Shown piece by piece: positions 19,969-28,359 of a stretch of 33,242 nucleotides of DNA (positions are counted from its first letter, which is position 1; the number at the start of each line of letters is the position of its first letter). The notes beneath the pieces are model-generated. The model made no database searches. It saw nothing but the letters and a program-made list of their open reading frames with translations, and was not told where the DNA came from. This DNA is from Dehalococcoidia bacterium (lineage in GTDB: Bacteria; Chloroflexota; Dehalococcoidia; WHTO01): positions 1 to 33,242 of the forward strand of contig WHTO01000002.1 in NCBI GenBank assembly GCA_009377665.1, in the 5' to 3' direction. The translations under genes were made by a program, and so were the position numbers.

Positions 19969-20727
19969 TCAGCCCTCAGCCGCCCGCCGCTCTCCGGCGG
20001 GCGCAGGCGCCCGCTGGGCACGGCGGTCGAGGACGTATCCGAAGCCGCGTACCGTCCTGATCGCTGGTGATACCAGCCCGACTTCCTGCAGCTTATTACG
20101 CAGGCGGCTGATCAGGACCTTCACCGGCTCGCGCGACACCTCGTCGGGAAGGGCGACGCCCTGCATCGCGTAGTACAGGTCGGGGTGGGATACTACCCGT
20201 CCCGGGTTCGCGGCGAGGTGCGCGAGCACCTTGAATTCACCAGGCGTCAGCCGAAGCTGCTGATTTGCGGCCGTCGCTTCTCTCCGCGTCACATCCAGCT
20301 CCAGTGAGCCCACTTTGATCTGGTCGGCCTCCTGTGGGCGCGACCGGCGCAGCAGCGCGCGCAACTGCGCGGTGACGTGCGCGGGTCGGGCGCCGGCGGC
20401 AATGTGGACGTCGGCGCCCTCCTCGAGGGCGGCTATCGCCGGGCCCACCCCGTCGCCGCCGCAGGCGAGGACAATCGCGTCGGGGCTGGTACTACGGAAA
20501 CGCTGGATCACCTCGAGGCCGCGCTCCGTGTCGCTGGACAGGTCCACGACGAGAACGCGCAGGCCTTTGAGGGAATCCCCTTCGGGCTGCTGGACCTCGC
20601 GGAGGCGCAGCTGCAAAGGCTCAAGCGCTCTCTCCAGGACCTTTCGGGTTTCGTCGCCGACGGCAAAGACCGCCGCTTCCCCAACCATTACCTGCAAGTA
20701 TGGTGTCAGTTTTTGACTTCTCGCCAC
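19969..20727 (-). CDS. OmpR-type winged-helix DNA-binding protein with degenerate receiver domain
   Basis: C-terminal LRLTPGEFKVLAHLAANPGRVVSHPDLYYAMQG..VLISRLRNKLQEVG..IRTVRGFGYVLD is Trans_reg_C-like; N-terminus is receiver-like but lacks several conserved residues. Confidence 0.82.
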   Translation of the reverse strand: MARSQKLTPYLQVMVGEAAVFAVGDETRKVLERALEPLQLRLREVQQPEGDSLKGLRVLVVDLSSDTERGLEVIQRFRSTSPDAIVLACGGDGVGPAIAALEEGADVHIAAGARPAHVTAQLRALLRRSRPQEADQIKVGSLELDVTRREATAANQQLRLTPGEFKVLAHLAANPGRVVSHPDLYYAMQGVALPDEVSREPVKVLISRLRNKLQEVGLVSPAIRTVRGFGYVLDRRAQRAPAPAGERRAAEG

Positions 20728-20751
20728 TAGAGCCGCGTCACGAGCGCGCGC

Positions 20752-23700
20752 TCAGCTCCCTGGTTCAACGGCGAGCGCCTGCCCCGGAGCCCGTGTGAGC
20801 AACTCTCTTCCGCCGTCGGCCAGGCCAGGTCCTGCCAGCGAAACGCCGACCCCAGGACGCGCAAAGTGGAAGAGGAACTCGGCGATTGGCAGGCCTGTCA
20901 CCTGTTCGCAGGCCAGCGCGTAGACCATCGCCTGCGGCGCGTAGCGCTGGGCTCGCGCCTCAGTATCGGCGGCAGCGACGTTGTCTGACTTGACGTCGAC
21001 GAGGACCAGTCCGGCGTCCTCGCGAAAGAGGAGGTCCATCGCGCCTTCGACGAGGCCGCCGTCGAACGGAAAGGCAAACGGCACCTCACGCCACACCTGC
21101 GCCGAGCGCAGCGCCCTCTCCATCAAGGGGGAACGCAGCGTCGAGCGCAGCATCGCCGAGAGCTCCGGCCGGCGATCCTCGACCTCGTAGTCCGCGGCCA
21201 CGGCCTCAACCAGGGCGTCGAGCCCCCGGTCGTCCCAGTGGCGCAGGTCTACCCGCTCCAACGCCGCGTGAAGCGCGCTGCCGAGGCGAATCGCCGACGA
21301 CGCCGGGGTCCGCGACAGGGGTTCGGCCCCGCCGTCGAACCTGACAAGGCTGGTTGCCGTCCAGATGGAGCGATGGGGCATGGCCGTTAGCAGCTCCGCG
21401 CGCCGCTGCTCCCAGGCGGCCCTTCCGGCCACGAGCCGCGCCGCCGCGTCCGCGTCGCTGGGTATCGGAGCCACGGCCGGCGGCTGGACTTGCTGGAGCC
21501 CGGATCTGTCGATGCCCGGCACGTCGTCGAGTCCCTTCCCCAGGTACCCGAGCCAGCAGCGCTCTACCTTCCCGCTGCGGAAGGCGCCGACCACCAGGTG
21601 GTCGCGGGCCCGGGTAGCCGCCACGTAGAGTTGCCTGACGCGCTCGGCATCGTCGCGCGCCTCCTCGTGCGGGGCGATCTCCGCGAACCGCGGCGTCGCG
21701 AACTCGGCTTTTCCCGAACTCCCCCGCCGCACGTGCAGCTCCTTGCCGACACGATCGGCGTACTCGCGGCTCGGGTTGTTGAGCGACCCTCCCAGGTTGG
21801 CAAGGATCACGATGGGAAACTCCAGGCCCTTCGCCGCGTGAATCGTATACAGGTTCACCTCCGTACCGGGGCTGTTGGGCACGTGCGCCGGGGCGTCGCC
21901 CTCGCGCGCGGCGCCGTCCCGGTTGGTTCGCAGCCAGCGCGTGAACCGATGCAGCGTCGCCGCGGTTTGCGCCTCGTACTGGCGCGACATCTGCGCGAGT
22001 TTTCGCAGGTTGGCCACGGCCTGCCTGCCCTGCCGGCGCAGCGTGTGCAGCTCGGTCAACCGCGATTCGCGCAGCGCCTCCTCCACCAGCGCCGACAGGC
22101 GCATGTCGTTACGCACCTGGTGCAGTCGCGCCAGGACCCGGTAGGCGTCCGTGATCGACGTGGGTGCTTCGGCGGGGGTGACGGCGGTGTAGTCGAAGGA
22201 GCCGCCCGCCACGCGGTGCGCCAGCAGATCCTCGTCGCTGACGCCGAAGACGTGCCGCAGAGTGGCTGCGACCGTGATCGAGTCCAGGGGGTTGTCGATG
22301 GCCAGGAGGAGCGCGATCGCGTCCTTTATCTCCTGGCGAACGTAGAAGAACGACCCACCCTCGTGACGATAGGTCAGTCCCTGGTCCCTGAAGACGGCCT
22401 CGTAGATGTGGAGCCCGGTCCGAGTCGGCATCAGGATCGCGATGTCGCTCGCCCGCGCCGGCCTGGTCTCCCGGTCGTCGGGGTCCTGCACCTGCCAGTT
22501 GCCTACGATCTTCTGCTGGATCAAAGCGGCGATGTGCTCCGCTTCCTGGCGCCTCATGCCATCGGCCCTCTCCTCCTTGTCGGGCGTGGTTGTGGGACGA
22601 AGCGCGGTCACCCCATCACCCTCGCCCCCGAGGGCAATGTCGCGGGTCTCGGAAGCAATGAGCGGAATGTAGTCGGCCTGCACCCCGGGCGCGCCGGTCA
22701 TCTGGGCTGCAAACGTCCCGTTCGCCCAGTCCACGATCCCTGGGCGGCAGCGAAAGTTCTGGCTGATCAGCAGCCGCCTGCCGCCGCGCTCGATTATCTG
22801 CCGCGCGTTCTCGTAAATGGCGATGTCCGCCCGGCGGAACCGATAGATGGACTGCTTGGGATCGCCGACTACGAACAGCTTGTCCGTCGCCAGCTCGACC
22901 TCGGTCCAGTCCGCCGCCGGCGTGCTTCCCTCTCGCTCGGCCAGGAAGAAGACGATCTCGACCTGCAGCGGGTCCGTATCCTGGAACTCGTCGACCAGGA
23001 TGTGCTTGAACCGCCGCTGAAAGTACCGCCGCACCTCGACACGCTCCTTCAGCAGCCGGCGCGCGAGCACGAGCAGGTCGTCGAAGTCCAGCTTCCCGGA
23101 ATCCCGGCGTCGTTTCTCGTACCAGGAAGGAAAGCCCTCCAACCACTGCATGAGCAGGACGAGGGCACCCGAGCAAAGTTCATTGCGGACGCGGTCGCGG
23201 GCCACCGTCAGCTCGCCGAAGACCTCCTTCTGGCGGGCGCAGTAGTCGGCTTCCCATTTCAGCTTGTTGCCCTTGTTTTTGAGGACGTCGCGATGGCCCG
23301 CGACTATGCGTTGCGCCTGCTCCCTGTCCGCCATCTGCAATCGCAGCAGGTAATCGGCGGCCTCGTCGATCTGGCGATAACCGAGGTCGCCGTGGTCGCG
23401 GCAGTGCGCCTGCATCTCCTGGAGCCGTGCCACGCCACCCGCCAGCTCCTGCCTGTAGGCATCAATGTCGGGCCGCGGCACGGGGGAATGGTTCAGTGGC
23501 AGCAGGTCACGCTGTTCGTTGATTCTCGCCGCCAGGTTCTTGATCCCGGAGAAGGGAAAGCCGAGCAGCAGCGCCCGCTCGACGGCCGTCGAGTCAGCCT
23601 CGAGCGCCGTCGCGAACCACTCCTCCCACGCCGCCTCGAAGTCCACCTTCATCGCCAGCTCGTCGAGGAGTTCGAACCGCGGGTCGATGCGCGCCTCGAC

Positions 23701-24084
23701 GGGTCTTTCCCTGAGTAGCGACTGGGCGAAGGCGTGGATCGTCTCAACGTGGGCGCGGTCGAGGTCGACCAGCGCCTCCTCGACCCGGCGCCGCTCGTCC
23801 TCGCTCCCTCCAGCGGCGAGCGCCTCCTCTAACCGGGCGCGGATGCGCACCCGCAACTCGGCAGCAGCAGCCTCCGTGAACGTTATGGCGACAATCTCGG
23901 TGATCCTGGCCTCGCCGCGGCTGACGATTGCCACCACCCGGTCGACCATCAGGCTCGTCTTACCGGTCCCGGCGGCCGCCTCGACGCAGACCGGCGTCGA
24001 GAACTCTCCGATGGCCAGGTCGCGCTCGCGCTGGTCCGCGGGCCTGCCCGGCTCAGGCCAGAGGCTCGACTGGAGGGCGCTCAA
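20752..24084 (-). CDS. addA: AddA-like UvrD-family helicase/exonuclease; TTG start at 24084 overlapping the addB-like stop proposed
   Basis: Walker A VEAAAGTGKTSLMVDR; VDEFQDTDPLQVEIVFFLAE; FVVGDPKQSIYRFRRADIAIY; NLYTIHAAKGLEFPIVILANLGG; C-terminal PD-(D/E)xK EGAMDLLFREDAGLVLVDVKSD. The ORF track runs to 24168. Confidence 0.88.
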   Translation of the reverse strand: MSALQSSLWPEPGRPADQRERDLAIGEFSTPVCVEAAAGTGKTSLMVDRVVAIVSRGEARITEIVAITFTEAAAAELRVRIRARLEEALAAGGSEDERRRVEEALVDLDRAHVETIHAFAQSLLRERPVEARIDPRFELLDELAMKVDFEAAWEEWFATALEADSTAVERALLLGFPFSGIKNLAARINEQRDLLPLNHSPVPRPDIDAYRQELAGGVARLQEMQAHCRDHGDLGYRQIDEAADYLLRLQMADREQAQRIVAGHRDVLKNKGNKLKWEADYCARQKEVFGELTVARDRVRNELCSGALVLLMQWLEGFPSWYEKRRRDSGKLDFDDLLVLARRLLKERVEVRRYFQRRFKHILVDEFQDTDPLQVEIVFFLAEREGSTPAADWTEVELATDKLFVVGDPKQSIYRFRRADIAIYENARQIIERGGRRLLISQNFRCRPGIVDWANGTFAAQMTGAPGVQADYIPLIASETRDIALGGEGDGVTALRPTTTPDKEERADGMRRQEAEHIAALIQQKIVGNWQVQDPDDRETRPARASDIAILMPTRTGLHIYEAVFRDQGLTYRHEGGSFFYVRQEIKDAIALLLAIDNPLDSITVAATLRHVFGVSDEDLLAHRVAGGSFDYTAVTPAEAPTSITDAYRVLARLHQVRNDMRLSALVEEALRESRLTELHTLRRQGRQAVANLRKLAQMSRQYEAQTAATLHRFTRWLRTNRDGAAREGDAPAHVPNSPGTEVNLYTIHAAKGLEFPIVILANLGGSLNNPSREYADRVGKELHVRRGSSGKAEFATPRFAEIAPHEEARDDAERVRQLYVAATRARDHLVVGAFRSGKVERCWLGYLGKGLDDVPGIDRSGLQQVQPPAVAPIPSDADAAARLVAGRAAWEQRRAELLTAMPHRSIWTATSLVRFDGGAEPLSRTPASSAIRLGSALHAALERVDLRHWDDRGLDALVEAVAADYEVEDRRPELSAMLRSTLRSPLMERALRSAQVWREVPFAFPFDGGLVEGAMDLLFREDAGLVLVDVKSDNVAAADTEARAQRYAPQAMVYALACEQVTGLPIAEFLFHFARPGVGVSLAGPGLADGGRELLTRAPGQALAVEPGS

Positions 24085-27000
24085 TCGATGCCTCTCATCT
24101 CGTCGATTGCCAGCCGCCCCGACCCCGCGCTCTTGCGCTCCTCGTCGGTAGCCACGCTGACGGCGCAAGCGTGCTTGAAATCGCAGAACTGGCAGTTATC
24201 GCCGCGCTTGTTTCGCGGTGTCCCTGTTCGAGGCACGAAGACCCCGCTCCTGGCCGACCGTGCGAGAAGGTCTATGATCCGGTCGAAGTCGTGCCTGCGG
24301 GCGCCCAGCGAAGCGCCCGAAAGCGTCACCACATTGGTCTTGGCCTCGCGATTGATGTGGCGATAGCTGGCGTCGACATCCTCCTCCGAGATGCCGAGCG
24401 CGTTCGCGGTCGCTATCAGGTAGACGGGGAGCTGCACCTGGCGGCCGCCCTCGAACGAGGCGTCTGGGCCTTTCGTTGTGGCTGTCGTGCGCCCCGACTT
24501 GTAATCGATTACACGGGCGGCGTCGGGGCTGCGGTCGATGCGGTCGATTCGACCCTGGATTCGAAAGATGACCCCTTCCTCCGTCTCAAGCAGCAACGGA
24601 TCCTGCCGCGAGCCAAAGGGATACTCCAGCGCATATGGGACGAAACGCTCCCCCGCGTCCGCCAGCTCCTCCTCCAGGAATCGCTCCAGGTCCTCCAGCA
24701 AGATCCTCTGGTTCGCCTTCCAACCGACGAACACGCCCGTCACGCCCTGCCTCTCGGCCGCCTCGAACTCGATGCGCGCCGCTTCGTGCAGCAGGTCCCC
24801 ATACTCGGCGCGGCGGTCGCGATCGAGCGGGAGCATCTTCAGTTCGATGAGGTTCTCGAAGAACCGCTGCAGGATGGCGTGGACGATGTTGCCTCGGTCC
24901 AGCGGAGAGAGCTCGGTGATCAGCTCCGGATCGTCGATCTCCTCAAGGCCCAGCAGGTGGCGCATGAAGAAGCGCTGGGGGCAGGTGGCGTAAGCTTCCA
25001 GAGCGGACGCTGACAACACCGCCCGGTCGAAGTGACTGGTGAGCGCTGGCACAACCGACGAGCCGGCAAGATTGCCGTCGTAGACCGTCAGCGCCGCGCT
25101 GGCGCGCGCCGCGTATCCCGCCTTCATGCGCCCGAAATGGGCGCTGACCTGTGATAGGTAGGCGACCGCGTCCTGGCGCGGCGCCGTGCGGGCGACCCGG
25201 ATGTCGTACTCGGCGACCGTCAACGCGTCGTCGTCAGGCACCAGCGGGTCCGGCTCACCCGGGGGTATCCCGCCGCTCTCCAGGCCAACTGACGACCGCT
25301 TGAGCGCCAGGTAGAACGCCGACGGATGCCGCGTCCGCGGCTTGTTCTCATCGAAGAGCGGGTAAGAGGCATAGAGCCTGCCGGCAGAACCAACAAGGTT
25401 GGAGAACAGCAGCCTCTCCTCCTCCAGGCCCAGCGCGGCGCGCGGGAGCCAGCGCTCCGTCGGCCTTGCCGACAATCGAGCGCGCTCGCCCTCGAGCAGC
25501 AGCGAGTCCTGGCGCTGCGGCGCCGGGAAGCTGCGCTCGGCCAGGCCGATGACGAACACGTGCTCGAACGCCGCCCCGCGCATGCTCCTGGGCTGCCCGA
25601 CAAAGATGTGGCCTCCCCCGAGGTGGCCGCGCTGGACGGCGAGGTCCTCGAGATACAGCCGCACCGTCTCGCTGAAGCGTTCAAACGCCAGCGGCGAGGC
25701 AATCGCGTCCAGGCGAGCCACGTGCTCCAGCGCCCGCTGGCAGGCCTCGTAACCATCGGCATGATCGAGGTAGCGGTCGGCCACCGCGATGACAGCCGCC
25801 ACGTGTTCGCTGTAGGTGCGGTCGTCGGCGAGCACGCCCAGGTCGCCGACGAAACGTTCGATGAAGGCTCGCAGCCTGCTTGCGTCTTCCACCTGGCGCT
25901 CCAGGGCTTCGCGGGAACTCTCATCAGCCCGCTCGAGCCGCCGCTTCACCTGCCGCTCGTATGCCTCTAGCCGCTCCTGCCACTGCTCCTGGCCGGCGAT
26001 GATGGCGGCGCGGCGCGTCAGCCACTCCCAGGTCTCGGGGCGGCCGCCCGCCAGCGATTCCAACGTCAACGGCGCATAGGTCGCGAACTCGACGATGTCG
26101 CTGCGCCTCAGGCCGGAGGCAACCAGCCCCAGCATCAAGAGCAGCGAGCGGCCCCAGCGCGTTTCCGCCGCCCGATCGCCATCGGCCTGGAAGAAACGCA
26201 GGCCGGCGGTCGAGAGCGCCTCGCCCAGCAGGCGCCCGTAGGGGTCCGCGCTGCGATAGACGATGGCAATGTCGTCGCAGCTGACGCCATCGCGAAGCAG
26301 CCCCAGCACACGACGGACCACGTGTTGGACCTCGCCGATTTCGTCGGGCGCCTCCACCAGCTCGATCGGTGCACCCGCCACCGGGTTGCGGGGCTCAACG
26401 AACAGCGACGCCGCGACCGTCTCCAGGGGCGTGCTGCCGCCGGCGAGCGCGTCGCGTTCGAAGCCATGACGGGCGAGCGACCCCAGCACGTGGGCGTTGT
26501 ACGATGAGCGACCGCACGCCTCGTCGGCCAACAGCGCCGTGACGTCCAACGTCGTCGCCAGCCGCGCCAGGGCCCCGGCCTGGAGCTCGGTGAAGTCGTG
26601 AAAGCCGTAGGCCACCATCCTGTCCGAGCCCAACCGGTCGGCCGCCTGCTCCGCCGAGTCGAGGGCGTTGCGAAACAGCTGCCGCACCGTCTGGTGGACC
26701 GCCTCGATCCGCTGTCCGGCCGCCTCGGCGACGGTGGCCAGGCTGAGGATGCGCTCGGCATCATATGGGCCGGCGGCATCCGTCCGGCGCACTCGCTCCG
26801 CAAGCGCCCGGAGGTCATCCGCGCTGACACCCGCGTTGGCAAGGTCGTCGATAACAGCCAGGAGCGCGCTGTGCAGGCCGGCATGGTCTGCCACTGCCTC
26901 GAAGTACCCTGGATGCTCCGCCAGCGTTTCCCTGATCGCCGCGAGCCACTCCAGCTCACCGGCCAGCGGACCGCTGCCGCCCATGGCCGTCAACTTGCGC

Positions 27001-27206
27001 AGCAACTCGACGAACGTCAGCAGGCGGACGTTGACGACCCCCTCGGACGCCAGCGCCAGCCGCCGCTGCAGGAGCAGGGCGACGAGGTAGCTGGGCACCA
27101 CGATGTTGACGGGGCCAAGCGGGTCAACAGCCCGCTGGCCGGCGATCTCCCGCTTCAACCAGTCGTCCAGCGCCGCGCGCGGGCCCGTGATGACGCGAGC
27201 GCTCAA
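24081..27206 (-). CDS. addB: AddB-like inactivated helicase/PD-(D/E)xK nuclease with Fe-S-type cysteines
   Basis: ALEAYATCPQRFFMRHLLGLEE; RIQGRIDRIDRSPDAARVIDYKSGRT; terminal CQFCDFKHAC; N-terminal Walker A absent (ITGPRAALDDWL). Confidence 0.85.
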   Translation of the reverse strand: MSARVITGPRAALDDWLKREIAGQRAVDPLGPVNIVVPSYLVALLLQRRLALASEGVVNVRLLTFVELLRKLTAMGGSGPLAGELEWLAAIRETLAEHPGYFEAVADHAGLHSALLAVIDDLANAGVSADDLRALAERVRRTDAAGPYDAERILSLATVAEAAGQRIEAVHQTVRQLFRNALDSAEQAADRLGSDRMVAYGFHDFTELQAGALARLATTLDVTALLADEACGRSSYNAHVLGSLARHGFERDALAGGSTPLETVAASLFVEPRNPVAGAPIELVEAPDEIGEVQHVVRRVLGLLRDGVSCDDIAIVYRSADPYGRLLGEALSTAGLRFFQADGDRAAETRWGRSLLLMLGLVASGLRRSDIVEFATYAPLTLESLAGGRPETWEWLTRRAAIIAGQEQWQERLEAYERQVKRRLERADESSREALERQVEDASRLRAFIERFVGDLGVLADDRTYSEHVAAVIAVADRYLDHADGYEACQRALEHVARLDAIASPLAFERFSETVRLYLEDLAVQRGHLGGGHIFVGQPRSMRGAAFEHVFVIGLAERSFPAPQRQDSLLLEGERARLSARPTERWLPRAALGLEEERLLFSNLVGSAGRLYASYPLFDENKPRTRHPSAFYLALKRSSVGLESGGIPPGEPDPLVPDDDALTVAEYDIRVARTAPRQDAVAYLSQVSAHFGRMKAGYAARASAALTVYDGNLAGSSVVPALTSHFDRAVLSASALEAYATCPQRFFMRHLLGLEEIDDPELITELSPLDRGNIVHAILQRFFENLIELKMLPLDRDRRAEYGDLLHEAARIEFEAAERQGVTGVFVGWKANQRILLEDLERFLEEELADAGERFVPYALEYPFGSRQDPLLLETEEGVIFRIQGRIDRIDRSPDAARVIDYKSGRTTATTKGPDASFEGGRQVQLPVYLIATANALGISEEDVDASYRHINREAKTNVVTLSGASLGARRHDFDRIIDLLARSARSGVFVPRTGTPRNKRGDNCQFCDFKHACAVSVATDEERKSAGSGRLAIDEMRGID

Positions 27207-28219
27207 CTGTACATGCTCAGCGCCCGCCCGGCGTCGGCGGCAAACTGGTCTCGCAGCTCAGCCGGCATCAGCACCTCTACCTCTGGCCCCCAGCTCCGGA
27301 TCCACGAAGCCACCTCCACCGTGTCGCTCACCGTCAACCTGACGAGGTACGAGCCGTCGGGCTGCCTCTCGATCACCTGGCTGGGGTGCCACTGCGCCTC
27401 GAGCAGGCGCTCGGCCACGGCACGCGAGAAGCGCAGGATCACGTCCTTCTTCTCGCCGCCGATCCAGACGCCCCAGGCCGGGCCCAGGACCGATTCGATG
27501 CTGAAGTCGTCGGGCATCTCGAACGAGTAGGCGAGGAGCCGGGCCTCGTGCGCGCGCTCGATCTTGAAGACCCTGATCGACTTGTGCGTGTGCGAGAACC
27601 CGATCACATACGTCGAGAAGCCCGTCCCCGGCTCGATGAAATAAGGCTCCAAATCGACCTGCGACTCGTTGCCCCGCGCCGACCGATACGAGAAGCTCAC
27701 GCGGCGCGCCCGCGCCCAACCCTGCGTTAACACCCGCATGGTCTCCGAGAATGCCGGATTTGCCGCCCTGTCCGCAAGCGTCGTCACCGCCTCGGCGACC
27801 CTCCGCGCCATCGGCGCCGGCAGGATCTCGCCCAGCTTGCTCAGGCTCGTCAGCACGTCGGGGTCCTGTTCGTCCGTGTAGCGGGTGTACAGGCGCAGGG
27901 CCAGGTAGAGCGCCCGCGCCTCATCAACCGAGAGTCCGAGGGGCGCCAGGCGGGCGCTGCGGTCGACGCTGTAGCGGCCACCCTGGGCCAGCACCGGCAC
28001 GCCGAGCTCCGACTCGAGCACCGCCAGGTCGCGCTGGATCGTGCGCTGCCCGACGCCCAGCATCCTCGCCAGTTCGCTCGTCGAATAGCCACGAGGCGAA
28101 CGGTACAGTATTTCGTTGAGCCTTTGCAGGCGGGCGGCGCGGCGCGCAGGTTCGGCAACCATCGAGTACTCCTCAGCTTTTCCCGTCAGTGATGCCATGA
28201 TGCCTGAACCGCGCGTCAA
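27203..28219 (-). CDS. HTH (DeoR/HTH_11)-WYL domain transcriptional regulator
   Basis: LNEILYRSPRGYSTSELARMLGVGQRTIQRDLAVLESELGVPVLAQGGRYSVD; WYL-like FIEPGTGFSTYVIGFSHTHKSIRVFKIERA; C-terminal WCX-like DVILRFSRAVAERLLEAQWHPSQVIERQPDGSYLVRLTV. Likely start is internal (MVAEPARR). Confidence 0.88.
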   Translation of the reverse strand: MTRGSGIMASLTGKAEEYSMVAEPARRAARLQRLNEILYRSPRGYSTSELARMLGVGQRTIQRDLAVLESELGVPVLAQGGRYSVDRSARLAPLGLSVDEARALYLALRLYTRYTDEQDPDVLTSLSKLGEILPAPMARRVAEAVTTLADRAANPAFSETMRVLTQGWARARRVSFSYRSARGNESQVDLEPYFIEPGTGFSTYVIGFSHTHKSIRVFKIERAHEARLLAYSFEMPDDFSIESVLGPAWGVWIGGEKKDVILRFSRAVAERLLEAQWHPSQVIERQPDGSYLVRLTVSDTVEVASWIRSWGPEVEVLMPAELRDQFAADAGRALSMYS

Positions 28220-28223
28220 TTAC

Positions 28224-28249
28224 TGTCGCGTGCCGCAGAGTGCGCGACA
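28224..28249. promoter_or_regulatory. Perfect inverted repeat TGTCGCG-N12-CGCGACA, candidate operator between the WYL gene and moaA
   Basis: 28224-28230 TGTCGCG and 28243-28249 CGCGACA, directly upstream of the WYL ORF in a divergent spacer. Confidence 0.55.
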
Positions 28250-28359
28250 CTTCTATAGTTGTCCGGACATTCACGGGGTTCGCTCGATGCGACACCGTGC
28301 TCAACGCAGCCAGGCCGGCCGGCGGGCAGCCCGACCCCCGCGCTCGCTAGGATGCAAGC

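Follow-up and report, generated by a model that had tools for sequence, protein, structure and literature searches.

A 33,242-nucleotide (nt) stretch of a Dehalococcoidia genome (GenBank assembly GCA_009377665.1, contig WHTO01000002.1; hereafter the window), part of a 53-kb contig in a 2.96-Mb metagenome assembly, carries a gene for a WYL-domain regulator directly before addB and addA on the minus strand (Table 1). An earlier note on this DNA had proposed that these genes and a winged-helix gene behind them form a regulated DNA-break or defence unit, and all four of its open reading frames were confirmed. The tight packing it described held up against the reading frames and the N-termini of homologues: the WYL gene and addB overlap by 4 nt (TTGA, 27203-27206), as do addB and addA (TTGA, 24081-24084), and the TTG starts of addB and addA both fit those N-termini. 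The WYL frame is open from 28219, and the ATG behind a Shine-Dalgarno sequence (Table 1) is its likelier start. Comparison with relatives gives good support to the prediction that the WYL regulator controls AddAB in this lineage, linked to it in the window and acting in trans elsewhere.

Table 1. Genes and predicted regulatory elements of the WYL-addB-addA locus (window positions).
Feature	Position	Strand	Description
WYL regulator gene	27203..28162	-	helix-turn-helix (HTH)-WYL-WCX, 319 amino acids; likely start ATG 28162, Shine-Dalgarno GAGGAG
addB	24081..27206	-	PD-(D/E)XK nuclease with D888, D901, K903; cysteines C742, C1005, C1008, C1014; no Walker A
addA	20752..24084	-	UvrD-type helicase, Walker A GTGKT, intact C-terminal PDDEXK nuclease
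Winged-helix gene with degenerate receiver	19969..20727	-	neighbour, not counted in the unit
Predicted WYL operator	28213..28229	-	GCGACA-gtaat-TGACGC, 11/12 consensus bases
Extra operator half-site TGTCGC	28244..28249	-	
Extra operator half-site TGTCGC	28289..28294	-	
-10-like hexamer CATCAT	28197..28202	-	exactly N10 from the operator; departs from the TAnnnT consensus in the first T

By architecture, the window pair is predicted to be AddAB-type, yet divergent. Pfam-type domains assign a UvrD helicase and a PDDEXK nuclease to AddA, with both the Walker A motif and the C-terminal nuclease complete, and a PDDEXK nuclease to AddB, in which four cysteines are invariant and, as in its relatives, a Walker A motif is missing. 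The nearest solved structures are AddA and AddB of Bacillus subtilis, yet both proteins fall below the NCBIfam equivalog cut-offs (AddA 283.5 vs 707.65 bits; AddB 83.8 vs 903.7 bits). In families f26 and f4 (L098, L099, L105), AddA is without the C-terminal nuclease motifs that are kept in the window and in family f17.

Among 294 genomes of the class, addB occurs in 80 and a relative of the WYL gene in 54; where a genome has both, they lie on separate contigs or, if the genome is a single contig, about 0.5 Mb from each other. A further 80 addB loci, taken from other genomes, have no WYL gene of the window family nearby (48 loci with at least 1.5 kb upstream), a 400-genome sample of the phylum Chloroflexota holds no WYL-addB adjacency of the window type, and a single-sequence scan of genome contigs with AddB returned no match. 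The suggestion that WYL-addB-addA-winged-helix synteny might be conserved thus failed in every relative tested, a result that, by the earlier note's own statement that missing synteny counts against the unit, would refute it. Support for a WYL-controlled AddAB comes not from synteny but from a predicted operator common to relatives.

Upstream of WYL genes, the palindrome GCGACA-N5-TGTCGC is present exactly in 14 of 71 cases and with at most one mismatch in 21 of 71, compared with 6 of 2,840 dinucleotide shuffles. The half-sites of a longer inverted repeat, TGTCGCG-N12-CGCGACA, had led to this motif; the longer repeat itself was rejected as an operator, performing no better than shuffles (370/1000). 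An exact operator stands directly upstream of addB, with the WYL gene elsewhere, in genomes G147, G050, G016, G239 and G179, each of which also has a site at its WYL gene. Allowing no or one mismatch, the operator occurs at addB in 16 of the 17 genomes with WYL from families f17 and f33, in which the WYL gene is not linked to addB, and at the addB promoter in 16 of 20 genomes with a WYL gene vs 2 of 29 without one (nominal Fisher p=1.7e-7); the latter two are incomplete f17 assemblies. A scan of 248 class genomes for the exact pattern found at least three sites in 19 of 45 genomes with WYL and in none of 203 without it (nominal p=2e-16), and reversed-pattern controls were low (0-2 in most genomes). 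Within family f33, the WYL-less genus g81 has no exact sites. Across 296 gene 5' ends in such loci, all but one or two matches fall at WYL, at addB or at the gene transcribed divergently from WYL, and the promoters that bear the operator are otherwise diverged and spread over many genera. Among 65 addB promoters from many phyla, only six, of family f17, carry the operator, and none outside Dehalococcoidia does. Because relatives in which WYL and addBA lie apart carry the predicted site before both, the pairing in the window looks like a conserved, previously undescribed damage-response circuit and not a chance neighbourhood.

Family f33 also shows the operator in other settings. Genome G205 has 28 exact copies, well above all other genomes, with a control count of 0. 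At several f33 loci (L100, L102, L112, L117, L120, L131, L143), WYL is the first gene of a conserved operon that also encodes an M24 and a DPPIV-type peptidase; most of these loci have the same operator. Two f33 genomes encode related proteins of about 1130-1180 amino acids behind an exact operator (L376:4112-7513 and L368:4110-7658), for which no family or PDB match was found; in relatives, the large uncharacterized genes that follow some sites likewise had no PDB match.

The site also keeps a fixed distance from the promoter. In 26 of 38 promoters, a TAnnnT hexamer lies downstream of TGTCGC, at 10 nt in 23 and 11 nt in 3; other offsets are almost empty, and 5,000 shuffles gave a mean of 0.5 and a maximum of 4. 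The window follows this spacing with an approximate hexamer (Table 1). In relatives, TGTC and TA are 16 nt apart, equal to the distance in the mycobacterial PafBC motif, tTGTCRgtg-8nt-TAnnnT (PMC5656591), and this agreement points to an activator. For DriD, too, the spacing between site and -10 is constant (PMC12340889); the palindrome that SiwR binds is located between -35 and -10 (PMC10693628).

The window WYL protein consists of HTH_11, WYL and WCX domains (Pfam), the architecture of WYL activators. Compared with the PDB, its family profile matches DriD (7e-29) and PafBC (4e-28), and Foldseek placed the DriD complex with single-stranded DNA (ssDNA) and DNA first and PafBC second for the predicted fold, with the repressors BrxR and CapW further down. 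The ligand-residue pattern of basic and aromatic positions (R/K..R, Y) is present: K219, R222 and Y204 (numbered from 28219) are kept in 36-37 of 37 relatives, and K219/R222 align with RLDR of DriD. Taken together, the -10 geometry and the profile and fold matches to DriD and PafBC favour an activator that answers ssDNA, and we infer both activation rather than repression and ssDNA as the ligand.

Our preferred reading, which we hold with a probability of about 0.7, is that a homodimeric activator of the DriD/PafBC/SiwR kind, probably sensing ssDNA, controls AddAB via the predicted operator. The WYL homodimer would bind GCGACA-N5-TGTCGC 10-11 nt upstream of a TAnnnT -10, where PafBC acts. The window site before the WYL gene would drive one overlapping WYL-addB-addA transcript, so that the regulator would govern AddAB along with its own gene; in related families, a second copy of the site would let the same protein act on addBA in trans. 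The probable signal is ssDNA from broken or stalled DNA, which would bring more AddAB for end processing, and further targets may be recJ, rmuC-ligD and, less surely, the type I-C CRISPR operon.

Elsewhere in the window's own genome, the operator stands in exact form before a YjeF-recJ operon, rmuC-ligD polymerase genes, DUF5131-TcmP and thyX, and with one mismatch before type I-C cas3 and a glyoxalase gene. Such a target set is sensible, since the PafBC regulon takes in AdnAB and RecBCD (PMC8223512) and the DriD regulon takes in recJ (PMC12340889); among these targets only rmuC-ligD has a perfect TAnnnT, so we regard the wider regulon as suggestive. One site with a single mismatch (L300:1612-1628) lies beside a Glyoxalase_6-type gene at 1683-2045, and a gene of the Glyoxalase_6 Pfam family adjoins siwR in some Actinobacteria (PMC10693628).

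The own-genome type I-C locus (L268, C111: 3253-3269, 3370-9728, 11221-11704) comprises cas3, cas8c, cas7, cas4 and an array of seven repeats; its one-mismatch operator lies 100 nt before cas3, and this Cas3 is without a WYL fusion. In several genomes, a relative of the WYL gene overlaps cas3, cas6, cas8b or cas1 or stands in front of it, and two of these cas-linked WYL operons carry ACGACA-N5-TGTCGC with TATATT or TATGCT behind it. Fusions of WYL-WCX to Cas3 (HD + helicase), in proteins of about 1070-1280 amino acids, occur in Chloroflexota genomes that do not belong to the window's class (L232, L233, L234, L235, L236, L237, L238, L240); WYL domains fused to Cas3 or associated with CRISPR were described by Makarova et al. 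2014 (PMC4012209). The window WYL protein itself matches the PADLOC Cas3c profile PDLC01766 (profile positions 5-316, E=3e-74) and falls below the cut-off of the CRISPR-associated WYL family TIGR03985 (32.3 vs 60 bits). We rejected its derivation from a CRISPR-linked regulator, as the tree places it beside solitary WYLs of family f17 (SH-aLRT 86) and not with Cas-linked ones.

Several observations weigh against the preferred reading. The WYL-addBA adjacency is confined to the window genome among all those tested; the window operator carries one mismatch, and about 0.1-0.3% of shuffles score as well; the window -10, CATCAT, is imperfect; and a -10 accompanies only 12 of 96 other site-orientations. 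One-mismatch sites in the own genome number 28 vs 15 in the control, so that about half are expected by chance. Related genomes share ancestry, so the Fisher values overstate independence and the p-values are optimistic, and the comparison set is without same-order relatives of the window genome, which limits what it says of conservation of the window site within the order. Against the direction of control, one could argue that WYL is a repressor of the BrxR/CapW type, holding AddAB down until a nucleic-acid ligand lifts the repression. An operator in the core promoter and before its own gene would suit that role, and BrxR and CapW are among the structural matches; we nevertheless consider it unlikely, as the activators DriD and PafBC match far better by profile and fold, and the site is fixed 10-11 nt from the -10 in PafBC geometry, whereas repressor sites need no fixed phase. 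It is very unlikely that the palindrome serves as a box for another regulator, such as a lineage LexA, with WYL and addBA merely two of its targets. Although recJ, rmuC-ligD, addAB and a dinG-like gene would suit an SOS box, LexA box identity was rejected: the best match in the own-genome lexA region has 4 mismatches, and the lexA promoter holds a different palindrome, GAGAA-N5-TTCTC. The sites, moreover, vanish along with the WYL gene, even inside family f33, and the half-site TGTC and its spacing agree with the WYL activator PafBC.

The uniqueness of the adjacency would fit a WYL gene that came by chance to lie before an ordinary addBA operon and has other targets, but the 4-nt overlap and the operator shared at WYL and addB by unlinked relatives make the chance of this slimmer still. 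Least credible of all is joint action of WYL, AddAB and the winged-helix protein as a dedicated anti-phage module. The defence link drawn in the earlier note retains some footing, in WYL relatives that head or are fused to CRISPR-Cas genes and in the one-mismatch site before the genome's own cas3; this link is indirect, however, and the data fit a dedicated defence module less well than a regulon for repair or DNA damage. The locus lies among housekeeping genes (rpsB, tsf, pyrH, frr, uppS, moaA, pcrA, rseP-dxr-cdsA), the window genes scanned include no defence genes, and AddAB has no defence-family match apart from general helicase similarity. The winged-helix gene encodes an OmpR-type winged helix (Trans_reg_C) behind a receiver that keeps a phosphoacceptor-like aspartate and lacks the usual lysine and threonine. 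Its gap to addA is the 24 nt reported earlier if GTG 20727 is the start, but 63 nt if ATG 20688 is. No homologue of it lies beside addA in any relative locus examined, and we therefore treat it as a neighbour, not as the operon-end member once proposed; it has no operator.

Beyond AddAB, it is possible, if doubtful, that one ssDNA-sensing WYL family in Dehalococcoidia brings double-strand-break processing (AddAB, RecJ, RmuC-LigD) into one LexA-independent regulon with CRISPR-Cas interference, the regulator having moved repeatedly between heading addBA, heading cas operons and fusion to Cas3 while the PafBC-type promoter was kept. More generally, the preferred reading predicts, down to a 17-bp site and promoter, a second DNA-damage circuit that does not depend on LexA, and we found no such circuit described for the class. 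It would place the main end-resection nuclease under a WYL circuit, as under PafBC in mycobacteria, and suggests that PafBC-type promoter control extends beyond Actinobacteria in a homodimeric, symmetric version. It also offers a testable reason for the same regulators on CRISPR operons, as both jobs start with ssDNA.

Compared with B. subtilis AddAB (3U44), the window pair shares the addB-addA order, an AddA with helicase and nuclease and an AddB nuclease with iron-sulphur cysteines, but its AddB is without Walker A and both proteins lie below the equivalog cut-offs. The WYL-Cas3 fusions and CRISPR-associated WYL regulators belong to the same WYL family as the window protein, which is free-standing and precedes addBA. 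SiwR of Mycobacterium smegmatis is likewise a homodimeric WYL activator with a palindrome (19 bp) upstream of the -10 and a role in genotoxic stress, but is reported to control adjacent DinB/YfiT-like genes and no end-processing nuclease. Caulobacter DriD, a homodimeric WYL activator switched on by ssDNA with targets didA, bapE, recJ and dnaG, is nearest in PDB fold and sequence and shares the homodimer-type palindrome, the fixed -10 distance, a site at its own gene and the recJ target; its site, however, is a 20-bp pseudo-palindrome overlapping the -35, and AddAB is not among its listed targets. Mycobacterial PafBC shares the HTH-WYL-WCX architecture, a TGTC element 16 nt before TAnnnT and an end-resection nuclease as target. 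PafBC is a heterodimer with a non-palindromic site, whereas in these Chloroflexota a single protein would use a palindromic one, and the regulator gene can overlap addB.

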